A DNA stretch of 50,408 bases from an uncultured Bacteroidia bacterium (GCA_905478335.1 CAJQIC010000046.1:1-50408); one strand, 5' to 3'. Shown: positions 1,312 through 23,333, counted from the first letter of the stretch. Notes: a model not told the origin generated them from the sequence alone. A program made the numbers and translations.

Positions 1312-1674
1312 ATGACGACAACACCGGAACACGACCAACGCATAGCTAAATTAACTTTTGCATCGGTCTATCCTCACTACATAACTAAAGTAGAAAGTAA
1401 AGGGAGAAGCAAAGAAGAATTGCTGCAAGTGATTGAATGGCTAACCGGTTTTAATGAAGCCTACTTAGACGAGCTAATACAAGAGAAAGCAACGTTTGAG
1501 ACGTTTTTTCAGCGGGCGACTTTAAACCCAAATGCGTCGTTGATCAAAGGCGTAATCTGTGGTTATCGGATAGAAGATATTGTAACACCTTTGACCAAAC
1601 AAACCCGCTATATGGACAAACTCGTTGACGAATTAGCGAAGGGTCGTAAAATGGAAAAGATCTTACGGGCATAA
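1312..1674 (+). CDS. DUF2200 family protein
   Basis: The 120-residue protein matches the DUF2200 family nearly end to end by recall. It has the N-terminal TPEHDQRIAKLTFASVYPHY, a central EELLQVIEWLTGF helix, the NPNASLIKGVICGYR block and the basic C-terminus DELAKGRKMEKILRA. The family is small, cytosolic, conserved in many bacteria and has no established function. The length is typical, so the gene appears intact. It is not clearly co-transcribed with the transporter downstream: the 141 nt gap has no terminator I can see. Confidence 0.88.
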   Translation: MTTTPEHDQRIAKLTFASVYPHYITKVESKGRSKEELLQVIEWLTGFNEAYLDELIQEKATFETFFQRATLNPNASLIKGVICGYRIEDIVTPLTKQTRYMDKLVDELAKGRKMEKILRA

Positions 1675-1815
1675 CTGTCTCCTCCTTTAAACGAAAATAA
1701 GCCTCTAAAACCCTTCCCAATGAGCGGTGTTTCACACTATGTTCAGTCAATCCGAAGGATTTTTTATTAAAATGTGTTATTTTTCAAAGCTAATGTTTGG
1801 TCAAAATTGTAATAC

Positions 1816-4035
1816 GTGAAAAAAACGAGAGTCACACCTAAGGCGGGGTTTAAAGGGTTAATAGAAAACTGGCAAAGTGATTTAATCGCGGCGGTCAGCG
1901 TTGCCTTAATCGCGTTGCCACTGTCTTTAGGTATTGCTTTGGCAGCAGGTGCTCCTGCCATGTCTGGGATAATATCCGCAATTGTGGGTGGTGTGGTGAC
2001 AACACTTTATCGGGGCGGACACATTTCAGTAAATGGTCCAGCAAAAGGGGTAATTGCCGTAATTTTATTAGGCATCGGTTTAATGGACGATGGGACTGGG
2101 CAAGCTTTTAACTATGTCCTTGCAGCCATTGTTGTATCCGGTGCGATTCAAGTTGTTTTAGGGCTGCTCAAACTTGGACGATTGGCAGATATATTCCAAT
2201 CTTCTGTCATTCACGGACTTCTGGCGGCTATCGGTATCATCATTTTCGCCAAACAAATACACGTTGCCTTAGGCACTCATTCTGATAGCCATAACATCGT
2301 GCAAAACCTTATTGACGCGGTCAAAATGTTGCCAGAGGCGAACCCTTTTGTCGTAATTATTTCTCTACTCGGGTTGCTATTGCTCTTGTTTCATTCTAAA
2401 ATTAGTTACCACTTTTTTCACCTCTTACCAACTCCGATGTGGGTCATTGCTTTGTCCATACCCATGGTGTATATTTTTGGGTTTCACGATGCGCAAACAC
2501 TTTCTTTTTTCGGTAGATCCTACGACGTAGGACCACATTTATTATTAGATATTCCGGATAACATAATGGATTCCATTATGCATCCAAATTTTGGGAAGAT
2601 ACATACCATCGAATTCTGGACTACTGTCGTGTCTATTCTCATCATCACAAGCATAGAATCACTGGCCATCGCCAAAGCGATTGACAAAATAGACCCATAC
2701 AAGCGAAAGACAGACTTAAATAAAGATTTAACAGGGATAGGTTTAAGTACAATGGCTGCAGGCATGTTGGGCGGTTTACCCATTATCTCGGTAATTATTA
2801 GAAGTACAGTGAATGTACATAATGGGGCTAAGACCAAATGGTCGAACATGTATCAAGGCCTAATCTTGTTGCTTTTTATTGTGGTGTTGAGTCCGATTAT
2901 GCAACAGGTGCCGCTGTGCGCTTTTGCTATTTTATTGGTTTACACGGGTTTCAAACTCGCTTCACCTTCGGTCTTTAAACAGGTTTACAACCATGGTGTG
3001 GAACAGCTGATTTTTTTCATCGGAACTATGGTGTTAACCTTATATACCAACCTGCTTATCGGGTTGTTAGGCGGGCTCTTATTGGCGTTGCTGAGTCATT
3101 GGATTTTATCTCGTGTTTCTATTCCTAGGTTCTTCCAAATGATATTTGATTCTGGATCCATAGTGGTTTTAAACCCTGACGGAACATACATATTAAAGAT
3201 TAGGGGGGTGGCAAATTTTCTTAGCATCCTGAATATTAAAAAGCTGATTGCTCAAATACCTGCTGGCTCAAATGCTACTATCGATTTGTCGGAAACTAGG
3301 CTCATTGGGACTACAGTGTTAGAAGACATATATGATTTTAGAAAAAGCCATAAAGACAGCGGTGGTGTCTTAAATATCAAGGGCTTAGATCAACACATTT
3401 CGTCTACCAATCATAAACTCGCTACAAAAATCAAGACTAATATTCTGCAACCACTCAATAGACGCCAGAATTTATTGAAAGAAATGGCCGAAAATTATGG
3501 GTGGAATTTTGAGGTTGAACCCCAGGAAGATTTAGAATATTACCAGTCGTTTTACTTCTTCAAAACGCGACCATTAGAAATCCAGAAGAACTGCATATCT
3601 GACAATGACAAGGATATGCATATGCGCTTATTGGATGTGCGCTTCGAAGAAGGTGCAGACATTTTTCCTGATGAGTATAGCACAACACTTGGGCTGTTAA
3701 AACTGCCATTTAAGATTCCAAAGTTCACGATCGAGAAAAAAGATTTCTTAGATAAAGTATTACATATCGCTCAGCATAAGGACATAGATTATATTGTTTA
3801 CGAGGATGCGATTGAGGATTACATTGTGAAGGTAAACGACGTTGACGAAATGGGCGCATTCCTATCGGAGCGACTTAAGGTCCTGATCGAGATTAGCGGT
3901 ATTCATCACCTCGAAAGCAACGGGGAAGCTATCCTGATTATGAGCAAAAACCTTGCACTCGCTCAAGTCAAAGACTATATCCGTATGATTCAATTTGTAG
4001 AGAATGTGAAGGATATGCTTAAGCAGAAACGTTAG
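1816..4035 (+). CDS. SulP family inorganic anion transporter with C-terminal extension
   Basis: This 739-residue SulP/SLC26-type carrier starts with GTG at 1816. About twelve hydrophobic segments span residues 20-435, including the family's LPLSLGIALAAG region and AIVGGVVTTLYRGG. A STAS-like domain follows at about 455-560, then roughly 140 further residues (600-739) with no membrane segment, which is longer than many SulP proteins. Known relatives move sulfate, bicarbonate or other anions across the inner membrane, often driven by Na+ or H+. The substrate cannot be read from sequence alone, and no carbonic anhydrase or sulfate-assimilation gene lies beside it. The GTG start puts a basic KKTR stretch just before the first membrane segment, as expected. 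Confidence 0.9.
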   Translation: MKKTRVTPKAGFKGLIENWQSDLIAAVSVALIALPLSLGIALAAGAPAMSGIISAIVGGVVTTLYRGGHISVNGPAKGVIAVILLGIGLMDDGTGQAFNYVLAAIVVSGAIQVVLGLLKLGRLADIFQSSVIHGLLAAIGIIIFAKQIHVALGTHSDSHNIVQNLIDAVKMLPEANPFVVIISLLGLLLLLFHSKISYHFFHLLPTPMWVIALSIPMVYIFGFHDAQTLSFFGRSYDVGPHLLLDIPDNIMDSIMHPNFGKIHTIEFWTTVVSILIITSIESLAIAKAIDKIDPYKRKTDLNKDLTGIGLSTMAAGMLGGLPIISVIIRSTVNVHNGAKTKWSNMYQGLILLLFIVVLSPIMQQVPLCAFAILLVYTGFKLASPSVFKQVYNHGVEQLIFFIGTMVLTLYTNLLIGLLGGLLLALLSHWILSRVSIPRFFQMIFDSGSIVVLNPDGTYILKIRGVANFLSILNIKKLIAQIPAGSNATIDLSETRLIGTTVLEDIYDFRKSHKDSGGVLNIKGLDQHISSTNHKLATKIKTNILQPLNRRQNLLKEMAENYGWNFEVEPQEDLEYYQSFYFFKTRPLEIQKNCISDNDKDMHMRLLDVRFEEGADIFPDEYSTTLGLLKLPFKIPKFTIEKKDFLDKVLHIAQHKDIDYIVYEDAIEDYIVKVNDVDEMGAFLSERLKVLIEISGIHHLESNGEAILIMSKNLALAQVKDYIRMIQFVENVKDMLKQKR

Positions 4036-4113
4036 TAGGAATTAGGGTTACGTTTGCTATGAATTTGCTAAATGCACAAGAACAAAGAGAATAGAACATA
4101 GAGAATAGACGAC

Positions 4114-4166
4114 CATTCACTCATTCCTCATTCACTCATTCCTCCTTCAATCCTTCAATCCTTCAG
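4114..4166. repeat. Short tandem repeats (15 bp x2, then 8 bp units)
   Basis: Two perfect 15-bp copies of CATTCACTCATTCCT (4114-4128, 4129-4143) are followed by CCTTCAAT units at 4144-4151 and 4152-4159 and a decayed unit to about 4166. The array fills the space between the convergent SulP and AAA-block genes and ends 16 nt from the stop codon of the minus-strand gene. It uses the same 8-mer as the array at 9604-9643. Confidence 0.85.
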
Positions 4167-4182
4167 CCCTTCAAACCTTCCT

Positions 4183-5772
4183 TCACTCCTCCCCCCAATA
4201 CGCGCTCATGTGAGCCTCAGCTTGACGAATCCAACTGTCGTTGTTGATTAACGAGTCTTGGTTGATCCACGTTACTTTGCCGTGTGTCGCGTCTGTTAAG
4301 GTCAATTCAGGGATGCTACCTCCGATGTATTCCCCATCGTCACCTGCTTTGGTTACAATAGTGCTTAACCACATGAATCGAGGGGTGCCATTGACAAAAC
4401 GAACAAATGGACGACTTTCAGCGGGATAGTTTTTACTCCAATCATAATTCTTTTTACTTTCTATGATTTTTGCTGATATGGCACTGCTTCCAATAAAGGG
4501 GTCTTTGGAGTTACGGTGATCAACGAAATACACTTTTTTGTCGTTGTCCCCAGGAATTAACAAACTCAAGCTTAACCCTTTTTTAGATTCTTCATACGGT
4601 TCAAGACCGAAGAAATTATACAGTTTTGCGTCTTTATTTACATTAAAAAATGTCACAAACGGTTGTGGGTTTGACTCGTTTGGTAGTTCTGGGATACGAA
4701 TATCGCCCTCGTGGTAAAAAGGCATTGGTGCAAAGAAACCATTCGTGAATCTGAAGCTTTCAGCTGTAAATCGAGCGACGCGTTTGGGGATTAAATTTTG
4801 GCCTTTTAGGTAGCTAATGGTAGGAACACTATCTACGGCTACATAATCACCTCTACCTAAAAGCACACGGGTTACATATGCGTCGTCCTCACTTTTTTCA
4901 TGAATGACAAAAACACCTCCAAAAACGGGTCTTGGAAACAAAAAACCTTTCCATCGTATAATGGGTACAACTTGCACCCAATGATTGTCTTCATCTGCTA
5001 AATAAAACGGAGTCGCAGTCTCACAATTTAGATATTGCAACAAAGAGAATCGTTTAGTCACTGCGGAAGAGGTTTTCTTACTAAATAGCAGTAATTCACC
5101 AATATCGAAATTTACATCCTTGCGGTACTTTGCTGAGAAAACAGGGGCCGGCAGGTTGGATGGTACGTGAATGACTTCGTACATATTTTTTTGCAGTTGC
5201 TGCAGTTTATATGCCTTCGATGGTCCAACAGCGCAACTGTAGTAATAGGCGTCGTTTTTCCCTCTTATAAATCTAGGGGGTGTCGCATCTTCAGTTTCAG
5301 ACAGGGCTTCTTGATTAATCAACGTTTTGACAGAGTTTAAAGGTTGAATACGCTCATGTCCTGTCTCTGGCAATGCTTGTAACACCACCTTTTCAATACC
5401 GGTATAATGATAGTATAAACTCAAATATTTGAATATGCTGGGGCCTGCCATATAAGAGAATGCAATAAATACTAAGAGCACTACAGACGAAAATACATTG
5501 TCTTTGTTGCTGCGTTTGCTCCATCCGTTGAAATACCAAATTGCGATGATCAATCCAATAATCACCAACAAGGCGTATTTTCTAACCGCCAAAACACCTG
5601 GTTGAATAGTGGCACGGTTGATAAACAGCAAAGCTAGAACCAAAACCAAACAAATAATGGTTTTGACAGGGTGCTTCTTTATCTGTGTTTTAAGAAATGC
5701 GCCAAACCGTTTACGAATATTATATACGGTCCAATAAATGCGGTTTCCAGATTTTTCGTTGTTCGCTGCCAT
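4183..5772 (-). CDS. Membrane-anchored protein of the AAA+ gene block, unknown function
   Basis: This 529-residue protein is the last gene of the block. After a basic N-terminus there are three hydrophobic segments, at about 36-52, 65-82 and 92-110. A large, mostly beta-looking domain of about 410 residues follows and carries no motif I recognise. If the topology is simple, this domain is extracytoplasmic, but the positive-inside pattern was judged only by eye. The gene follows the small membrane protein after 5 nt, so the two are probably translated together. Its place at the end of an operon with an AAA+ ATPase suggests a membrane platform or client for the ATPase. That is inference; no homologue is recognised. 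Confidence 0.75.
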   Translation of the reverse strand: MAANNEKSGNRIYWTVYNIRKRFGAFLKTQIKKHPVKTIICLVLVLALLFINRATIQPGVLAVRKYALLVIIGLIIAIWYFNGWSKRSNKDNVFSSVVLLVFIAFSYMAGPSIFKYLSLYYHYTGIEKVVLQALPETGHERIQPLNSVKTLINQEALSETEDATPPRFIRGKNDAYYYSCAVGPSKAYKLQQLQKNMYEVIHVPSNLPAPVFSAKYRKDVNFDIGELLLFSKKTSSAVTKRFSLLQYLNCETATPFYLADEDNHWVQVVPIIRWKGFLFPRPVFGGVFVIHEKSEDDAYVTRVLLGRGDYVAVDSVPTISYLKGQNLIPKRVARFTAESFRFTNGFFAPMPFYHEGDIRIPELPNESNPQPFVTFFNVNKDAKLYNFFGLEPYEESKKGLSLSLLIPGDNDKKVYFVDHRNSKDPFIGSSAISAKIIESKKNYDWSKNYPAESRPFVRFVNGTPRFMWLSTIVTKAGDDGEYIGGSIPELTLTDATHGKVTWINQDSLINNDSWIRQAEAHMSAYWGEE

Positions 5773-5777
5773 ACAGA

Positions 5778-6290
5778 TTACCTGTCTAAAAAGTCTTGCA
5801 CCCCTTTACGCCAATCGTCGTCTTTTTTCTTTTCTTGTTTGGGTTCTGGCTTATCTAATTTTTCGGGCTCAATTACTTTTTTAGGCGCTTCCTTAGCTCC
5901 TAAATCAGCTTCCAACGCATCTATCTTTTTTAATGTTTCGTTGGCTTTGGCCAAGCCCTGTGGCAGTTTCTTGGCGATAAACGGACCAACATAAAAACCT
6001 ATTAAAACCGCTATTAGGGCAATTGCGCCGTGTAACATGGTGATTAATGGATTCAGGTTGCCCAACCACCATGTTATATACATAAACACACCGGTGATTA
6101 GGATAGCTGGAACAAGTCTTTTTGAAAAAGGTTGGTTACGTATAAAGGTCAAATCCGTGCCCTCGGGTAATCGTTCTTTATGGGTTAAATCAAACCACCG
6201 TTTGTGCCATTTCAATCCTTTTTTGTGATCCCAAAGAACGAAACTGATGCCTAATACAAGGCCGATGATTAATGATAAAAGCGTATCCAT
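5778..6290 (-). CDS. Small membrane protein of the AAA+ gene block
   Basis: The 170-residue protein has three hydrophobic segments (about 4-20, 60-77 and 84-105). The cytoplasmic-type stretch between the first two is rich in Lys, Trp and His. After the last segment comes a charged tail of about 65 residues (Lys/Glu/Pro-rich, with EPEKLDKPEPKQEKKKDDDW) that looks disordered or coiled. This architecture suits a membrane anchor with a flexible docking tail. It begins 4 nt after the 423-residue gene and ends 5 nt before the large membrane protein. No family is recognised. Confidence 0.75.
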   Translation of the reverse strand: MDTLLSLIIGLVLGISFVLWDHKKGLKWHKRWFDLTHKERLPEGTDLTFIRNQPFSKRLVPAILITGVFMYITWWLGNLNPLITMLHGAIALIAVLIGFYVGPFIAKKLPQGLAKANETLKKIDALEADLGAKEAPKKVIEPEKLDKPEPKQEKKKDDDWRKGVQDFLDR

Positions 6291-6294
6291 AATG

Positions 6295-7566
6295 CTAGAT
6301 TAGTTGATTGTAAATATGTTTATGAGCCAGTATTTTGTTGATTGTCCAAACCTGGAGTTGTTCGTTCCAAGTCTGATACTCCGTATAGAATTTCGACTTG
6401 TCGAACAAGTACATCATTACTGGGTTGGCATTGTTGTAATTTGAAAGAAGTTGCCACAGTACTGCTTTTTCTTGACCAGCTAAATTTGTATTCGGATTCA
6501 ATAAATATGGTCTCAAAGTTTCGGAAATATCAGCTGTTTTTAGCGGCCTTTTATCCTTCAGTTGTGCGTGAAAACGCTCAAAGTCAAAATAAACATCTGG
6601 CAGAGAGCCATCCTGAGCCATTCGGTTTACAAGCCCTTTTCGTTGGTTTCTATTCAGTACTGTATAGTCTACATCGGAATCTAGTTTGGACAGTGCCGTC
6701 ATCATAACATGTTCTTGCATTACCTCCACCAAACCAGGGTTTGATTCAAAAAGTGAAACATCACTCGAGATCAAACCAGCATTATACAGATAACTGATAA
6801 GGCTCGGATCTTTAATATTGTATTCTACATGGCCGTGTTCTATTTCGCCAGATACGCCAGTTTCAGCGCCCTCATATACCAATAATGGTTTGTCATTTTT
6901 TAACCGTTTGAATACATAAATGCCTTGAAATGCCGCTGTATAAAATGTGTCGATATCGTTAAAAGGGTGCGCAGGTATTTCGAACTTCATATACCTTAAA
7001 TCGCCGTATTTTTTACATGATTCTATGATGTCGCTCCGCAGTTGATCATCTGACCAAGCCTGTGGTTTGTCATAAAATTCTCTAATTAACGCACGCTGTT
7101 TTTTACTTGCATTCATTAAACGCCCTACAGACGAGAAGTTTACTTTGATATAGTCCATCATAAGTAAATCTTGGGGTGAACGGTAAGCAGAGATTTCTTG
7201 ATCTAGTTCAAACCATAAACCTGTTTTGGAGGTGATGTCGGCAATTTGTGCGCCGTATTCTGCGAATAGATTTTTGTGTATTTGTCTGTCAAAACTGTGG
7301 AAAGGCATATAGATAGCACTCTCGGCTTGCTTTGGTGATATAACAACGCCGTACGGATTGGCTAACCCATGTGACAGATAATATCGATCCCCTTGTTCGT
7401 CAGCAATCTCTGGGCTCCATCCCCATCCATCTATATGGAACTTTTTAAGTTTAGTTGGGGCCAGACCAATGTCGTTAAGGCATTCGTTGTAACGTTTGAC
7501 CATCGTTGGATTACTAACCTCTATGAGGTTATGTCCGAACAACTCACTTTCAATCAGCTTAATCAT
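6295..7566 (-). CDS. Unknown soluble protein encoded next to the AAA+ ATPase
   Basis: The 423-residue protein lacks a signal peptide and membrane segments, so it is probably cytosolic. It is rich in aromatic residues, with several Trp/Tyr-containing blocks such as FHIDGWGWSPEIADEQGDRYY near 43-63. Its start overlaps the end of the AAA+ gene by 8 nt, a sign of translational coupling and of a physical or stoichiometric link. No catalytic motif or known domain is apparent. An adaptor or substrate role for the ATPase is a guess from position only. The start is ATG 7564-7566. Confidence 0.75.
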   Translation of the reverse strand: MIKLIESELFGHNLIEVSNPTMVKRYNECLNDIGLAPTKLKKFHIDGWGWSPEIADEQGDRYYLSHGLANPYGVVISPKQAESAIYMPFHSFDRQIHKNLFAEYGAQIADITSKTGLWFELDQEISAYRSPQDLLMMDYIKVNFSSVGRLMNASKKQRALIREFYDKPQAWSDDQLRSDIIESCKKYGDLRYMKFEIPAHPFNDIDTFYTAAFQGIYVFKRLKNDKPLLVYEGAETGVSGEIEHGHVEYNIKDPSLISYLYNAGLISSDVSLFESNPGLVEVMQEHVMMTALSKLDSDVDYTVLNRNQRKGLVNRMAQDGSLPDVYFDFERFHAQLKDKRPLKTADISETLRPYLLNPNTNLAGQEKAVLWQLLSNYNNANPVMMYLFDKSKFYTEYQTWNEQLQVWTINKILAHKHIYNQLI

Positions 7567-9523
7567 TTATATCTCCGCTCAATAAAGTTTTGTTGGCCTG
7601 TTGTTGGATGTACATGCGTTTGGCCTGCTCTTTAATTTCTCTATTCACACCAGTTTGGTTAATTCGGATTGAATTTTCAATGTAATTCAGTGCTTCATAA
7701 AGTCTTACATCGGTAAATGAAACACCTTTCATGTTTTGTTTCATCAGGTCTTTCAATATGTCGAGTTTCTTTGTGTATGGTTGCGTGAAGAAATCGTCTG
7801 GATTGTCCCACCAAATTTCAGGGAGGTCAAAGTCGATTAATCGGGCGTCTACTGCCTTTTGAATATTCCGTAAATCACGTGAGGAGAAAAACGGATACTT
7901 CTCTAACACTTGGTTGTAAAACTGACCGAAAAATTCGTGCGCTGTGGTGTCAACTTGTTTGCCCACATTGTGATATAATTCTTGAACTTCAGGTAGTTCA
8001 AATTCATACGTTGTATTTACCAGTTCGTTGATGGATTTGGCTGCTTGCTGGGCATCCATGTAGTCATAGTCCTTCGGATTTTTGCCGTCGACAAACTTCT
8101 TATCCAATTCTTTGTATTTCTTCCACCACAGATAGTCTTGATCCATAAAATCATACTTACTTGAGGCACCTTCCATTGATATGCGCATTTGTATCCGTGA
8201 TAAAACGGCCTTGTCAATTTGATCAGGGATGTTAGTGAAAAGGCTAATTAGTCGATTTCCAAGATTGACGGCATAAGCACCTTCTGTGTTTCTTAAGAAT
8301 ACACCGATAAATTCTCTAACCCCTGCTGAAACACCTTGTCTAGTACGTTCTTCCAAGTTGTTTTCAGCATCATCTATGGGTGCAAATACGATCTTGTTTG
8401 GGTCTTGCATGGGTTTAAACCATTCCATCGCACGCTCGGCTGTTCCCCCTTGAAAAGTAGAGACAATGGTTTCTGGCAATGGCCAAAATAAGAAAGGGTA
8501 GCCCAGTTGATCGCACCGCTCTTGAATCAAAGTAGCTGTTGCGGCAATGAGCATACTCTTACCAGTTCCTGGCTTACCCTCTGCCATGGTTATGGAAGGA
8601 AGACCACCCAATTCATTTATGGGGTTTTTCTTTGTGTCAAAGTCATAACACAACAAACGTTCGGCGTATCGCTTAAACAAGTGTTTGGCTTGTTTATTGG
8701 CAACGATGGCTTCCATGCGCGTCGGGTTGAACTGCATGCCTTTTACGCGTACAGATGATTGCGTTTCGAAGCCTTGCAATACAAACTCGCTGTTTTCTAA
8801 TTTGTAGTGATTCTGTGAGAAAGCGTCAGCATATTTTAACGCATTTTTTCGAAGAATGATTTCTTCCATCAACCGCTCAAAATACAACAAGGTCAGCTTA
8901 ACAAAATGTAAATCGGAATGCACAATTCCAGACCGCTCTATATAAGCAGCATAGTAATATAGGCTGCATTGAATGGCTTTGCTTGGACGTGTAAGGCTAA
9001 CCTCTGGGATTCCACCAAAGTCAATTTGAATTGACGACACCTGGTCGGCTAAATAATCTTGTAAGGCATATTGAATATATGACGCGGCAGAAAACAACAA
9101 TACTGCACTTTGTGTTTGACTTTTGTCGTGAAACTCCGGAAGTTCGGATTGATGCAAGCTCCCGTTTTGATTCTTTTGTTGCAACAAACCAAGGCCGCAG
9201 GCTTCTGCATATTGACTGGCTACGTATTTGCCGATGCAATACCCGGTGCGCACCGCATTCAGTATTTGACTGCTAGCACTTGACAGGATGATTCTATCAT
9301 TACTTATTTTAATGGCTGCCTTAAGCACTGATGCCTCATCTTCTTGGGCAAGATTCATTGCTTTATTGACGTTGGTAAGAAAGTTTAAGTCAATGCCGCT
9401 TGAGGAAGTTGATTTGTTGTCGGGTTTCCACCCAACTTGTTTCAAATAGTTTGTTATCTCGTCTTTGTATTGACTAAGATCTTCTTCTTTTATTTTTAGT
9501 AATGATGATTCTTGTTTTTCCAT
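7559..9523 (-). CDS. AAA+ ATPase, central gene of an uncharacterised six-gene block
   Basis: This 654-residue ATPase has an unassigned helical N-terminal region (1-290), one AAA+ core (about 300-450) and a long C-terminal region. Walker A is GKPGTGKS at 316-323. The pore-loop position holds FQGGTAERAMEWF (357-369), comparable to the YxGxSE...LF segment of classical AAA proteins. Walker B reads IVFAPIDDAEN (378-388), so Asp stands where the catalytic Glu of a DE pair is usual. A sensor-1-like Asn431 (LFTNIP) and an Arg-finger-like LSR at 441-443 follow. AAA proteins remodel or thread client proteins using ATP. The unusual Walker B may slow hydrolysis or shift catalysis to Glu387. Its client is unknown; neighbours suggest one linked to the membrane. 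Confidence 0.85.
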   Translation of the reverse strand: MEKQESSLLKIKEEDLSQYKDEITNYLKQVGWKPDNKSTSSSGIDLNFLTNVNKAMNLAQEDEASVLKAAIKISNDRIILSSASSQILNAVRTGYCIGKYVASQYAEACGLGLLQQKNQNGSLHQSELPEFHDKSQTQSAVLLFSAASYIQYALQDYLADQVSSIQIDFGGIPEVSLTRPSKAIQCSLYYYAAYIERSGIVHSDLHFVKLTLLYFERLMEEIILRKNALKYADAFSQNHYKLENSEFVLQGFETQSSVRVKGMQFNPTRMEAIVANKQAKHLFKRYAERLLCYDFDTKKNPINELGGLPSITMAEGKPGTGKSMLIAATATLIQERCDQLGYPFLFWPLPETIVSTFQGGTAERAMEWFKPMQDPNKIVFAPIDDAENNLEERTRQGVSAGVREFIGVFLRNTEGAYAVNLGNRLISLFTNIPDQIDKAVLSRIQMRISMEGASSKYDFMDQDYLWWKKYKELDKKFVDGKNPKDYDYMDAQQAAKSINELVNTTYEFELPEVQELYHNVGKQVDTTAHEFFGQFYNQVLEKYPFFSSRDLRNIQKAVDARLIDFDLPEIWWDNPDDFFTQPYTKKLDILKDLMKQNMKGVSFTDVRLYEALNYIENSIRINQTGVNREIKEQAKRMYIQQQANKTLLSGDIND

Positions 9524-9603
9524 GTTTCAATGCGATAATGCTTAACTGCTTTATTGCGTTTATGTGCTTTTTATTATTGTTTTAAACTCTCTTTTTTTAA
9601 TTT

Positions 9604-9643
9604 CCTTCAATCCTTCAATCCTTCAATCCTTCAATCCTTCAAT
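9604..9643. repeat. Five perfect copies of an 8-bp tandem repeat
   Basis: CCTTCAAT is repeated five times without a mismatch, followed by a near-copy CCTTTCAA. The array lies 8 nt behind the stop codon of the minus-strand gene ending at 9652, inside the AAA+ block, and would be transcribed as a purine-rich (GATTGAAG-type) track. The repeat unit is shared with 4144-4159. Confidence 0.95.
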
Positions 9644-9651
9644 CCTTTCAA

Positions 9652-10752
9652 CTACTCATCATACACATGTACAGGCGCAGCCAAACTTTTAAGCATTTCT
9701 GGTTCTGTGTCATTCAAGTACTGCAGCACGTCGTGTGATGTAATCATATACGAATGCATATCAGAGATCATCCGCTCCATACATTCTTTGTTCGACTCGT
9801 CTATATGAAATATTTGTCTTAATTCTCCTTTTGACAAGAATGACTTTGTCCGCCGTTCACCCGTCGAGAAAACAACCTCTGTTTTATAGGTCATTAAAAA
9901 CTGATCATCCGGAAAATGTTTTCGTAACATGATGGTATAGGCATGTTTGTCGCGACTATATTTTCCAAAAATTGGCCCAATTTCTATCCGCTTAAGCACC
10001 TTGGGCATAATGTGTTCATACGCGTTATCAATGTCTGACGCAATTACCTTTAAAGGAGACGAGTTGTGTGTTAAACGCTTGATGGTTTCCTCAAACGTCG
10101 CGTCATGGGTAACATCAGAGGTAGGTTCTTTGGCCTTCAATGGATTGTCAAAAACCATGGTATACACATAGGGTTTGTTGGTAACGCTATCGTACGAGGC
10201 CCATGAATAAAAATACGTGCGGGTTTTGTTTTCGTCTGTATGTTGATTGAGCAATTCCAAACCACCTGGTGTAAACTCAGTAAACAGATTAGTCCATTGC
10301 AGTCTAATATAATAACTTGACTTGCTGAGTTGATTCAACAGCTTGAGCGGATCGGTCTTTTTACGAATAAGGTTGTCTAAAATGGACTGTTTCAAAGAGT
10401 CTTTGCTAGGCAATTGAGCCAACGCGATGTCTTTTTTTGCGATGTCGTCATTCAACTTTTTAAACTCCATGAAGTTTGGGAAACCACTTTCTGTGAGGTC
10501 AACCAACATGGAATTCGTCTTGTCGTAAGCGTATTTCAGTCTAAACGCTTCAATAGTGTTTAGAAATTTCTGCGCAAATTGCTTTAGTACTTTTACCTCG
10601 AGTGGGCTTTGCCCAGTCAAATTGTCAATAGAGTTTAAAAGAATCTCAAGACAATTCTTCACATAGTTGAAGTAGTCCGCATACGCGTTTTCACCTTCTA
10701 GAACACTCCTGTCTAGTTCCGTAAAATGATTATTTATGTCAATCGTCTTCAC
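9652..10752 (-). CDS. Unknown soluble protein of the AAA+ gene block
   Basis: The 366-residue protein, starting with GTG at 10752, has no signal peptide or membrane segment. The first half (1-150) is predicted helical, with heptad-like Leu/Ile spacing; the second half is mixed. I recognise no domain. It begins 9 nt after the coiled-coil gene and is separated from the AAA+ gene by 128 nt that contain the 8-bp repeats, the only real gap in the block. An internal promoter for the AAA+ gene could sit there, but I see no TAnnTTTG element. Role unknown. Confidence 0.72.
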   Translation of the reverse strand: MKTIDINNHFTELDRSVLEGENAYADYFNYVKNCLEILLNSIDNLTGQSPLEVKVLKQFAQKFLNTIEAFRLKYAYDKTNSMLVDLTESGFPNFMEFKKLNDDIAKKDIALAQLPSKDSLKQSILDNLIRKKTDPLKLLNQLSKSSYYIRLQWTNLFTEFTPGGLELLNQHTDENKTRTYFYSWASYDSVTNKPYVYTMVFDNPLKAKEPTSDVTHDATFEETIKRLTHNSSPLKVIASDIDNAYEHIMPKVLKRIEIGPIFGKYSRDKHAYTIMLRKHFPDDQFLMTYKTEVVFSTGERRTKSFLSKGELRQIFHIDESNKECMERMISDMHSYMITSHDVLQYLNDTEPEMLKSLAAPVHVYDE

Positions 10753-10761
10753 TAAGAATTG

Positions 10762-12135
10762 TTAATCCATTAAATCATTAACAGACCCTTCTCCGTTGTT
10801 TTTAGGCGCATCATCATTGCTTGGTGTTTCATTCGTTTCCTCATGTTTAAAAGAGAACGTTTCCGAAACGTCGATGCCAAACTTCTTACTGTGTTGGTCC
10901 ATAATTTTGGCGTCTTCTTCTTTGTATTTGGCAGTAGCCTCAGCCATGGCAACCAACACCTGGTGAAGTTCTGTCATACGTTTAGGGTGTTTTTTAACAC
11001 GTTCAATCCTGTCTTTCTCAGAACCTACAAGTACTTTGGCGGCTATTTCAGTAATTTTTTGATCCGTTTTAACACCGGCTTCTTCATACATAGAAGCGGC
11101 TTCTTGAGCTGTCGCAGATTGAATCAATTGTAGACCTGATTCGTATGTAGCAACTCTTTCTTCCGTATCACTTTTTAACTGACCAATCAATTGCTTCAAG
11201 TTGTTTTTGGTTGTTGTTTGTGCTTCTAGGTGAATCACTATTTGATCAACGAATCGCTCTTTAGATTGAAATATACCCAAAGCGATGTTGAACTTACCTT
11301 TTAACTCAGCACGCTGCTCTTTTAAATCCGCAACTTTCTTTTCTTGAGCGGTGTATTCTGGACTATTATTTGGAAGCTCGGTCAGTTCAATTTCTGCTTG
11401 TTTAAGCTGGTTTTCGGTGGTTTCTAAATCCGCTTTACGTTCCTCCATAATCGAAGCAGCTTTTTCTTTGGTTTCAAAAGCCAGTTCTTTTCTGTTTTTG
11501 AGGGATACAATTTGTGTATCTACGTCAAGTATCATATTCTCCACGATTCCAACCATGCCTTGTACTTGGCTGATGATTCGATTTAAGCTTTCTCCGATGT
11601 CGGCATTTTTAAGTCGATCGCGGTAACGGCGTTGTGCTTCTTCTTCTGCCGCTTTCAGGTCTGCAATTTTGTCGGCAAGTTCTGCTTTGGTTTTTCGAAC
11701 CTTGCTGTTTTTATATCCAAACAAAATATTCCATGCATTCGACATGTTTTCAGCAGTTTTTGCCTCGAATTCTGCATCTTCTCTGGCTTTGGTTGCATTG
11801 GCAACCAGCTTTTGCTCAGAAGCGTTTAGTTCTTGAAGCTTAGAGAATTCACCTCCACAGCTGTCAAGCATCGAACGCAGGTGAAGCATCAGTTCTTGCA
11901 AGTCCTGCTCTGTAGCCTCAACATCTCCGTTAAGTGAATTAAAGTTAGCGTTGATGATGCCATCAACTATTTCTTCAGCTGATCGATTTTCACCAACTGC
12001 TTTTTCGATATCTGCTTCTATCTGGTCTAGTTTGGAGGAAATATCCCCTCCAGATTTTTTTTCAAGTTTGGCTTTAAGGCTTTCTACTTTTTTTTGGTCT
12101 CCGAGTTGGTCCAACAGGTCAAAGGAGTCTGACAT
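10762..12135 (-). CDS. Long coiled-coil protein, first gene of the AAA+ block
   Basis: With the start at ATG 12133-12135 (MSDSFDLLDQLGD) the product has 457 residues. The frame is open 16 codons further up, but those codons overlap the probable promoter at 12162-12169, so I reject them. The protein is highly charged, mostly helical, and has long heptad-like stretches at about 110-180 and 190-285. A Ser/Asn/Asp-rich tail ends in NDLMD. There is no membrane segment or signal. It faintly resembles TelA/toxic-anion-resistance-type coiled-coil proteins, but I see no defining motif. It probably forms a filament, scaffold or ring partner of the downstream ATPase (inference). It is followed after 9 nt by the 366-residue gene. 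Confidence 0.75.
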   Translation of the reverse strand: MSDSFDLLDQLGDQKKVESLKAKLEKKSGGDISSKLDQIEADIEKAVGENRSAEEIVDGIINANFNSLNGDVEATEQDLQELMLHLRSMLDSCGGEFSKLQELNASEQKLVANATKAREDAEFEAKTAENMSNAWNILFGYKNSKVRKTKAELADKIADLKAAEEEAQRRYRDRLKNADIGESLNRIISQVQGMVGIVENMILDVDTQIVSLKNRKELAFETKEKAASIMEERKADLETTENQLKQAEIELTELPNNSPEYTAQEKKVADLKEQRAELKGKFNIALGIFQSKERFVDQIVIHLEAQTTTKNNLKQLIGQLKSDTEERVATYESGLQLIQSATAQEAASMYEEAGVKTDQKITEIAAKVLVGSEKDRIERVKKHPKRMTELHQVLVAMAEATAKYKEEDAKIMDQHSKKFGIDVSETFSFKHEETNETPSNDDAPKNNGEGSVNDLMD

Positions 12136-12161
12136 ATATTTCGTTTTTAGGTTAAGAGTCC

Positions 12162-12169
12162 CAAATTTA
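12162..12169 (-). promoter_or_regulatory. TAnnTTTG-type -7 element of the AAA+ block
   Basis: On the minus strand TAAATTTG lies 26 nt before ATG 12135. The predicted start of transcription near 12158 gives a leader of about 20 nt and excludes the longer reading-frame start. A T-rich stretch upstream (around 12186-12189) is a weak -33 candidate. Confidence 0.55.
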
Positions 12170-12341
12170 ATAAATATGGGCACATAAAAGGGTTAAGAAT
12201 AGATGGTATTGTGGTTTTTTAAGACAGACGAAATACGTGTTTACATGAGTGATACAGATCAATAGGGGTTGAATAATTGTAATACGATGTAAGCACCGAT
12301 TAGTTACATTTTTTTCTATTTAAATGTCGTTTATTTGAACC

Positions 12342-20995: not shown

Positions 20996-22519
20996 TTAAT
21001 TCTGGTCAATGCGATCTAACCCATTTTTCGCCCTATGTTCTATACTTTTTTTGTATTCTTTATTGGCATCGTAAGACATGGACATTTTGAAGTATTTTTT
21101 GGCATTCACGTCATCACCATTTCGTTCATACATTTCTGCCAAATATAATGTTGCATAGGAGGCATAGTATTGCGGCAGCAGAATGCCTTCTTGTATAGCT
21201 TCCAAATAAAATGCCTTGGCTAGGTCTATGTTGTTAAGCACGTCGTATATCCGGCCTTTTCGATAGAAATATTCTGTTCGTTCTATACCTTTTGAAAAAT
21301 CACCAGCCTTTTTTGGTCTAATAATTTTTAACGCTTTTGCATAATACCCGCCATCAAATAACAATCTGGTTTTTAAAAGCGTAGAATTTAGGTTTAAGCG
21401 TTGCGTTGCAAACTTTTGCGCTTGTTCATCTTCCTCAAGTTCAGTGGAACCGGTTTGTTTTAATAGATTTAGGTAGTAGTCGTACTTGTCGTCGTTGCCA
21501 TTGATCGCTGAATGCCAGACGAGTTTTTGATAGCAACTTTTCACGTAACTTTCGCCTTGATACTGATCGATATACTGCAACAAATAGGTGTCCGCGTCAG
21601 GGTCTAAGCGGTTCAGTTTAGCCTTGCCCAACATAAAGGAAAGAAAAGGGATTTGCTTTTGAGTAGCGCTATGCTGACCTTGGGAAATAACGCGTATTAT
21701 TTCATCATTTTTTCTGCATTTATCTGCAAAATTGACTCGTGCGAAACGACTAAGTGGGTTTTGTTTGTGGTCCTTGGTTAGGCTATCAATAAGGTCCCAA
21801 GCTGTTACTTTGTCGTTTTTAAGGTACAGGTGAATAGAGGCGACAAAAAATTGCGCTTCTTTTTTCATTACATCCCATTCTGGGCGATCACTTTTTGCTG
21901 TAATAAAGCTGTTAAGATCCTCAAGCCCTTTGTCCATACTCGATTCAAAACCGAAGAATTGAACTAGTTTTTGATAATTAGTGGGTAAGCTACCGAAACC
22001 CGATTGCAGGAGGCCTAACGATTTTTTCGCAGCAATGTACTTTGGGTAGTTTTTTAGGACTTGTGTCCCGTATTTGTAACAATTTCTTACATCATTGGCT
22101 GCTGCCAAGTTGTTGCCTTTTTTGCCATTTACAACTGAAGAATAAAAGTAAACTTCTTCTAAAAGGAAATCTCTTGCACCATCATTATCAGCCGCCGAAG
22201 AGATGTTTTTAATGGCTAATCCTTTTAACGAATCAAAGGTGACAAACCCTTGTTTCGTTTCATTGGTGGTGAAAGATAACATGCTATGCATAACCATTAG
22301 GTAGTTGACAGCAGCATTCTCTGGATTTGTTTCTGATGCTATGGCTAGATGTGATGCGGCAGCATCCAATTCAAATTTAAATAGAGCTTTTTGAGCCTCT
22401 AAGCAATGCTCAGAAAATACAATAGCGTTCGCACCCCATGCCTGTGACGCTGCACAGCAAAGCACAAAAACAGATAGGCGTATAGAGTTGGTAACACGCA
22501 TTTGGACAAAGGTATTCAT
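20996..22519 (-). CDS. Secreted or periplasmic TPR-type repeat protein
   Basis: From ATG 22517-22519 the product has 507 residues. The frame is open 45 codons further upstream, but those codons lie inside the zinc-ribbon gene, and a GGAGG stretch (complement of about 22522-22530) sits just ahead of this ATG. The N-terminus then reads as a signal peptide (RLSVFVLCCAASQAWGA). The rest is helical with TPR-like spacing of Ala, Gly and Tyr, clearest near the C-terminus (AKAFYLEAIQEG; AEMYERNGDDVNAKKYFKMS). TPR proteins are scaffolds; the partner is unknown. ATG 22501 (MRVTNS) is an alternative start. Confidence 0.78.
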   Translation of the reverse strand: MNTFVQMRVTNSIRLSVFVLCCAASQAWGANAIVFSEHCLEAQKALFKFELDAAASHLAIASETNPENAAVNYLMVMHSMLSFTTNETKQGFVTFDSLKGLAIKNISSAADNDGARDFLLEEVYFYSSVVNGKKGNNLAAANDVRNCYKYGTQVLKNYPKYIAAKKSLGLLQSGFGSLPTNYQKLVQFFGFESSMDKGLEDLNSFITAKSDRPEWDVMKKEAQFFVASIHLYLKNDKVTAWDLIDSLTKDHKQNPLSRFARVNFADKCRKNDEIIRVISQGQHSATQKQIPFLSFMLGKAKLNRLDPDADTYLLQYIDQYQGESYVKSCYQKLVWHSAINGNDDKYDYYLNLLKQTGSTELEEDEQAQKFATQRLNLNSTLLKTRLLFDGGYYAKALKIIRPKKAGDFSKGIERTEYFYRKGRIYDVLNNIDLAKAFYLEAIQEGILLPQYYASYATLYLAEMYERNGDDVNAKKYFKMSMSYDANKEYKKSIEHRAKNGLDRIDQN

Positions 22520-22553
22520 TGTCCTCCATGAAATTAATACGAAAGAGACGTGG

Positions 22554-23333
22554 TTACGCTTTTTTTCGACGTCTTGATTTTGGTTTTTCTTCAACCACTT
22601 CTTCAACAATACCAGCCATTTCAGCATCAACGTTGATTCGACCGCAATGTTCACATATCACGATTTTCTTACGTTGTCTGATGTCCGACTGAAGTTGTGG
22701 TGGAATTTTTGCGAAACAACCTCCGCAAGAACCACGTAATACTGGCGCTACACCTAAACCATTGAAAACGTTCTTACGAATACGCTCGTAAGCTTTCAGA
22801 AGTTTCTCGTCAGCAGCTTTAACTGCTTTGTCGCGATCTTTAGCAATCTTGCCTTCTTCCTTTTCGGTTTCAGCGCTGATTTCTTCTAGTTCTTTTTTCT
22901 TATTCTCTAAATCGATTTTACGGCCATCTAAGTCTTGCTTAACTTCCTCAATCAATTCATTTTTCAAAGTAATGCTGTTTTGCAATTCGCCGATCTTCTT
23001 CTCAGCTGCAAGAACTTCTAAACCTTGAATTTCAATTTCTTTGTTCAATGCGTCAAACTCACGGTTGTTCTTAACCTTGTTTAACTGCTCATTGTATCGC
23101 TTACTAAGCTGTTGTGCCTGGCTGATTTTCTCTTTGTTTGCAACGATGTCTGAATCAAAATCAGCAATTTCTTGCTCAAATTTGTCAAGTCTCGTTTGCA
23201 AGCCTGCAAGTTCGTCTTCCAAGTCAGCCACTTCCATAGGAAGTTCGCCTCTAACTGCTTGTAACTGATCTAAATTTTTATCGATGGTTTGTAGATTCCA
23301 AAGACCTTGAAGTTTTTCTTCTATTGATGCCAT
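22554..23333 (-). CDS. Coiled-coil protein with C4-type zinc ribbon (DUF164/CT398-like)
   Basis: The 259-residue protein has a long helical hairpin coiled coil (about 5-180) and a C-terminal zinc ribbon with CxxC at about 203-206 (CGGC) and 227-230 (CEHC). It ends in a Lys/Arg-rich tail. This is the architecture of the CT398/DUF164 family, widespread in bacteria but without a settled function; a nucleic-acid or secretion role has been proposed for relatives. It begins 3 nt after the nif3-like gene, and that pairing recurs in many genomes as far as I recall. Confidence 0.9.
   Translation of the reverse strand: MASIEEKLQGLWNLQTIDKNLDQLQAVRGELPMEVADLEDELAGLQTRLDKFEQEIADFDSDIVANKEKISQAQQLSKRYNEQLNKVKNNREFDALNKEIEIQGLEVLAAEKKIGELQNSITLKNELIEEVKQDLDGRKIDLENKKKELEEISAETEKEEGKIAKDRDKAVKAADEKLLKAYERIRKNVFNGLGVAPVLRGSCGGCFAKIPPQLQSDIRQRKKIVICEHCGRINVDAEMAGIVEEVVEEKPKSRRRKKA

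Follow-up and report, generated by a model that had tools for sequence, protein, structure and literature searches.

Bacterial operons in which PspA/Snf7 proteins are encoded with an AAA ATPase have been described (PMC11237479). These operons and the Vps4/ESCRT-III system resemble the gene set reported here in that the gene for a classical AAA ATPase is accompanied by genes for a long coiled-coil protein and for membrane proteins. The set lies in a 50,408-nucleotide stretch of DNA from an uncultured Bacteroidia bacterium. This stretch, referred to here as the window, is a contig (C46) of a 2.78-Mb Bacteroidota genome. The set consists of six minus-strand genes spanning positions 4183-12135 and named here, in transcription order, CC (coiled-coil protein), B, AAA, DUF6638, TM3s, and TM3L; the last two are a small and a large protein with three transmembrane (TM) segments. 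Sequence comparison indicates that the set has been inherited, lost, and split together and is almost certainly one system. The system as a whole appears to be undescribed, with its parts partly known (AAA and one Pfam DUF). Our favored reading of its mechanism, given a probability of about 0.5, is an AAA machine that remodels a coiled-coil assembly at the membrane.

None of the six genes has an internal stop, and in a comparison with two congeners all six are under purifying selection (pN/pS 0.05-0.28); the genes are therefore taken to be real. The intergenic distances are 9, 128, -8 (an overlap), 4, and 5 nucleotides in transcription order, in agreement with the first-pass annotation of the window, which had placed all six genes on the minus strand. 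That annotation had set the start of CC at approximately 12169, and the gene call for CC covers 10762-12183. Both are replaced here by the ATG at 12135, which is kept in relatives. Pfam matches are limited to AAA (PF00004) and the fourth gene (PF20343, DUF6638), and scans of the six proteins with NCBIfam, PADLOC, and PHROGs gave no match of note. The partner families had been called unrecognized, which holds for the other partners but not for the fourth gene. By the curated cut-off this gene counts as a member of PF20343 (E 7.8e-36, 124 bits against a cut-off of 27, model positions 2-390 of 439), a named family that carries no described function. A literature search, with subscription papers mostly outside it, found DUF6638 unnamed and the operon undescribed; the operon may have been described earlier under other names.

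The six-gene order is kept in all but one of the complete Bacteroidota loci that were read. It is intact in eight loci from family and class relatives and in the first three Flavobacteriaceae loci. Another 19 of 20 Flavobacteriaceae loci read CC, B, AAA, a variable gene, DUF6638, TM3s, and TM3L, with occasional inserted open reading frames (ORFs). In the 20th locus, on the single-contig chromosome G817, the operon is in three pieces: CC-B-AAA lies at 1.83 Mb, the pair DUF6638-TM3s at 2.58 Mb, and TM3L by itself at 2.68 Mb. All six genes are retained. Searches of the Bacteroidota phylum sample with AAA, DUF6638, and TM3L returned the identical 4 of 296 genomes; by our own calculation, which ignores phylogeny, each further exact match to this set would arise by chance with a probability of about 3e-9. 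Protein distance matrices of the six families correlate, with r of 0.88-0.98 across 31 loci and of 0.82-0.95 when only Flavobacteriaceae are compared.

The junction between AAA and DUF6638 is occupied in loci L085-L104 by a NUDIX hydrolase (PF00293), a conserved 210-215-aa protein with two TM segments, or longer insertions (amidohydrolase, S26 peptidase). Upstream of CC, the loci of genus g162 encode a conserved protein of approximately 246 aa that has two TM segments and belongs to no Pfam family (L030 3960-4721 and L031 13724-14467).

The four soluble genes also occur in Proteobacteria. A tblastn search of plasmid records with AAA returned ten large replicons of Vibrio and Rhizobiaceae, and all ten of these records encode DUF6638. 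In loci of Vibrio, Sinorhizobium, Shinella, and R. leguminosarum, CC, B, AAA, and DUF6638 stand in the Bacteroidota order. Profiles built from Bacteroidota only matched the Vibrio and Sinorhizobium proteins with E values of 3e-16 and 5e-12 for CC, 7e-45 and 2e-37 for B, 5e-90 and 7e-71 for AAA, and 2e-34 and 4e-63 for DUF6638, respectively. TM3s and TM3L are absent at these Vibrio and Rhizobiaceae loci. A DUF2333 membrane protein takes the last position in Sinorhizobium and, by position and sequence, likewise in Shinella. The core is kept where TM3s and TM3L are absent, and the four-gene soluble core is therefore the conserved unit, with an exchangeable membrane part. The AAA-DUF6638 junction of one Sinorhizobium locus holds a DUF559 nuclease-type gene and an ISRm16 transposase. 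In a Pseudomonas fluorescens MFE01 locus, DUF2333 adjoins a NUDIX hydrolase and a putative amidase gene (PMC5256989), a pairing that echoes the NUDIX gene of the Flavobacteriaceae operons. In two Vibrio loci the core lies directly upstream of mfd, on a replicon of approximately 0.9 Mb deposited as a plasmid; it may be an extra copy.

Deep scans covered Bacteroidota genomes together with three collections (plasmid, phage, and IMG/VR). AAA was found in 7 of 38 genomes of the window's family, 8 of 395 in the class sample, and 4 of 296 in the phylum sample. Of 397 Flavobacteriaceae genomes, 114 have it, nearly always in one copy, and many of these loci have recurrent neighbors (for example, a 563-aa ABC-F-like protein). 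G328, a genome from the window's genus, lacks the six-gene block together with the neighboring SulP gene. The last 76 nucleotides of TM3L are fused there to the CC promoter and first codons, with a shared GAGTCT at the joint. These TM3L and CC remnants indicate that the ancestor had the block and that this lineage deleted it; an assembly error in this metagenome-assembled genome is a possible alternative. The deletion argues for vertical inheritance with loss. A phage or plasmid origin was rejected, since the phage and IMG/VR collections hold no relatives of the system and the matches in the plasmid collection are replicons of 0.88-4.6 Mb typed as non-mobilizable. Placement in a defense island was rejected on account of the flanking housekeeping genes.

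Shared occurrence, kept order, the split in G817, the loss in G328, and the Proteobacterial core together therefore point to one real, undescribed system. The first-pass annotation had proposed such a system outside the known modules, and no known module fits. A search for the genes occurring apart, or belonging to well-known unrelated families, turned up nothing against it, and the genes co-occur even in G817.

The patchy occurrence of AAA in the family, class, and phylum samples, the deletion in G328, and the variable junction genes (among them NUDIX, the two-TM protein, and the Sinorhizobium DUF559 nuclease-type domain) could also belong to an anti-phage or conflict defense system, in which the AAA/CC core would be the sensor and effector function would fall to the membrane proteins or variable cargo. 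This is unlikely in view of the housekeeping neighbors, the lack of relatives in the phage and IMG/VR collections, and the almost constant single copy in a broadly vertical pattern with recurrent Flavobacteriaceae neighbors. No recognizable toxin or nuclease is present among the six core genes. The best PADLOC 2023 match is partial, with an E value of 0.003 to JetB and IetA, and ten flanking proteins tested in the same way gave no match of note.

AAA exceeds the gathering cut-off of PF00004 (E 5e-9, 37 bits against 21.2) and is thus a classical AAA ATPase, consistent with its earlier identification as an AAA+ protein. Its N-terminal region of approximately 300 aa is of a type without a recognized family. 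The Walker A motif, the aromatic pore loop (S-x-F/Y-Q-G), sensor 1, and the arginines of the second region of homology are kept from Bacteroidota to Proteobacteria. The Walker B motif ends in Asp-Asp in every sequence examined, where the usual, although not universal, form of the family is Asp-Glu. The D2 ring of NSF has a similar Asp-Asp in Walker B, so slow hydrolysis is possible, which is taken as a lead only. A profile search of the PDB with AAA matched VCP-like, proteasomal, Vps4, NVL, PCH2, and katanin rings. The invariant Asp in place of the catalytic Glu, together with the NUDIX hydrolase inside the operon of many Flavobacteriaceae, might be read as a nucleotide- or envelope-signaling module in which AAA is a non-hydrolyzing, ATP-dependent switch. 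That reading is improbable, more so than defense: the remaining catalytic and threading motifs are all kept, and neither the window's clade nor several of the Flavobacteriaceae loci have NUDIX.

The first gene had been called a coiled-coil protein, and the AlphaFold2 model of CC (pLDDT 71) is helical nearly throughout. A conserved aromatic loop (SNAWNILFGYKNS) joins two long helices. CC carries FDLL near its N terminus and an NDLMD motif (DLM or DLL) at the extreme C terminus. Both are conserved in 31 loci and flank variable, flexible linkers, with the C-terminal motif lying beyond one. TM3s likewise ends, after a variable linker, in DDDWRKGxxDFLDK or, in Flavobacteriaceae, in KSARERLKDKGLL. 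Conserved tails such as those of CC and TM3s are usually docking motifs, and this role is presumed here. The CC proteins of the window, Vibrio, and Sinorhizobium have no Pfam match at E<1, whether to a PspA or Snf7 profile or to any other. A structure search with CC gave no Foldseek hit at E<0.001, and none of its fold-search rows is ESCRT-III or PspA, which is not evidence of absence. A sequence search of the PDB gave only coiled-coil look-alikes (for example, keratin, E 0.002). TelA, a toxic-anion resistance protein, was rejected as an identity for CC, with no PF05816 match and no TelA gene in its own genome and 19 relatives.

The last two genes had been predicted to encode membrane proteins, and each has three TM segments. 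The charge distribution suggests that TM3L has its N terminus inside and its domain outside, and that the tail of TM3s is inside. The TM3L model (pLDDT 77, pTM 0.79) combines a membrane portion with an alpha/beta domain that has repeats and spans approximately 400 residues. The top VIA-align rows for this domain are YpeB and YpmB, with Z of 6.7 (68 residues, root-mean-square deviation 2.9) and 5.9 (122 residues, 5.8), respectively, and its structural neighbors further include copper amine oxidase N-terminal domains. All of these are alpha-beta4 folds of the cystatin/PepSY type. TM3L has no sequence match to the PepSY models of Pfam. A PepSY/cystatin-like nature of the repeats is weakly supported by the model, and they are probably located outside the inner membrane.

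B has 16 residues that are invariant from Bacteroidota to Proteobacteria. A sequence search of the PDB with B, DUF6638, and TM3L gave nothing significant. B and DUF6638 were considered as paralogues and rejected, as profile-profile comparison found no similarity between them. The two could serve as client adaptors of a quality-control or complex-assembly chaperone, in which AAA would thread membrane- or periplasm-bound clients and CC would be a scaffold or adaptor and not the substrate. The aromatic pore loop and classical AAA signature fit this explanation, as would an extracytoplasmic PepSY-type domain, since such domains are proposed to bind and inhibit periplasmic enzymes (PMC2954215). The set has no protease partner, and CC is among its most conserved proteins, with invariant terminal motifs. 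A chaperone is accordingly the likeliest of the three alternatives weighed here and is still rather doubtful.

In the coiled-coil-remodeling reading, CC would assemble at the inner membrane, on its cytoplasmic side, and the mode of action would parallel that of Vps4 on ESCRT-III. The AAA ring would grip the terminal DLL/DLM tails of CC or the tail of TM3s and, driven by ATP, pull CC subunits apart or rearrange the assembly, with B and DUF6638 as its dedicated adaptors. TM3L would be the extracytoplasmic arm, its PepSY/cystatin-like repeats sensing or controlling something periplasmic. The first-pass annotation had AAA working with CC at a platform built from the two membrane proteins; such a platform would not be universal, as the core occurs in Vibrio and Rhizobium without that pair. 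In Proteobacteria, the soluble core would work with a different membrane protein, which in Sinorhizobium and Shinella is DUF2333, or would have no such partner close by. Candidate outputs are envelope maintenance, division or shape, and stress response.

Several points weigh against this reading. Which proteins touch, whether AAA forms a ring, which way it works, and to what end are all inferred, and conserved operons can equally encode enzymes or transport complexes. The Asp-Asp of Walker B may mean slow or absent hydrolysis. VIA-align matched CC to generic helical bundles only, with Z up to 11.5, where a level of about 13 is meaningful for helical bundles. For TM3L, the Z values of the matches fall short of the caution level of 8. 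At the Vibrio and R. leguminosarum loci, the core lacks adjoining membrane proteins.

A broader form of the remodeling reading is put forward more tentatively. This would be a widely distributed envelope machine, in which a Vps4-like ring with its own adaptors acts at the inner membrane to remodel a coiled-coil assembly of non-ESCRT type under an extracytoplasmic PepSY-like control subunit. Bacteroidota and Proteobacteria would each have combined the soluble core with membrane partners of their own. The ATPase is carried by more than one quarter of the sampled Flavobacteriaceae species, and five of the six families have no described function. If the reading is true, bacteria possess an AAA/coiled-coil membrane-remodeling machine distinct from PspA/ESCRT-III. 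The conserved tails and fixed gene set make it directly testable.

Table 1. Positions of the six genes and associated features, numbered in the window unless another locus is named.
Feature	Position	Strand	Basis
CC, 457-aa coiled-coil protein without TM	10762..12135	-	gene call, conserved ATG, AlphaFold2 model
B, 366-aa soluble protein	9652..10752	-	gene call, profiles
AAA, 654-aa classical AAA ATPase	7559..9523	-	PF00004
Walker A GKPGTGKS, aa 316-323 of AAA	8555..8578	-	alignment
Pore-loop-1 aromatic F/Y-Q-G, aa 357-359 of AAA	8447..8455	-	alignment
Walker B I-D-D, aa 383-385 of AAA, Asp replacing usual catalytic Glu	8369..8377	-	alignment
DUF6638 (PF20343), 423-aa soluble protein	6295..7566	-	Pfam match
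TM3s, 170 aa, three TM segments and cytoplasmic charged tail	5778..6290	-	gene call, predicted topology
TM3s C-terminal motif DDDWRKGVQDFLDR, beyond variable linker	5781..5822	-	alignment
TM3L, 529 aa, three TM segments then ~400-aa domain	4183..5772	-	gene call, predicted structure
TAnnTTTG -7-type promoter element	12162..12169	-	motif, position kept in some relatives
8-nt tandem repeat, 5.6 perfect copies, in 128-nt B-AAA gap	9603..9647	-	
Deletion scar in congener	L049 11053-11196 vs window 1667-4258 and 12122		sequence comparison

The first-pass annotation had the block headed by one good TAnnTTTG element. The element is present, 34-42 nucleotides upstream of the CC start codon in the window and in four of seven relatives checked, and it also occurs in the G328 deletion scar. 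The motif by itself is not significant, with 43 occurrences in the window against 59 expected. The repeats noted earlier in the gap between B and AAA were recovered. Their 8-nucleotide unit (TCCTTCAA) recurs at 4114-4180, in intergenic sequence beyond the 3' end of the operon, and a similar short repeat is found near the G328 scar. Elsewhere in the window, a 552-aa ORF with a GTG start and no Pfam match (20996-22654) overlaps the upstream gene for a CT398-like coiled-coil/zinc-ribbon protein.

The proteins of the set can be compared with three groups of known systems. The solved AAA sequences nearest by profile are VCP-like, proteasomal, and Vps4 rings, which places AAA close to the NSF/Cdc48 family; it differs in having a single AAA domain and an unrelated N-terminal region. 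TM3L may resemble YpeB and YpmB in having tandem alpha-beta repeats, as modeled, that follow a membrane anchor. It differs in its three TM segments, lack of a Pfam PepSY match, and weak Z, and its operon has no germination or cell-wall hydrolase partner. Vps4/ESCRT-III and the PspA/Snf7-AAA operons share with the present set short conserved tail motifs on the coiled-coil protein. The set differs from those systems in that CC has no PspA/Snf7 match, no MIT domain was found in AAA, and nothing in them corresponds to B, DUF6638, TM3s, or TM3L. The system is not placed with the PspA/Snf7 operons because CC fails the PspA/Snf7 sequence test, and its similarity to them is one of arrangement only.

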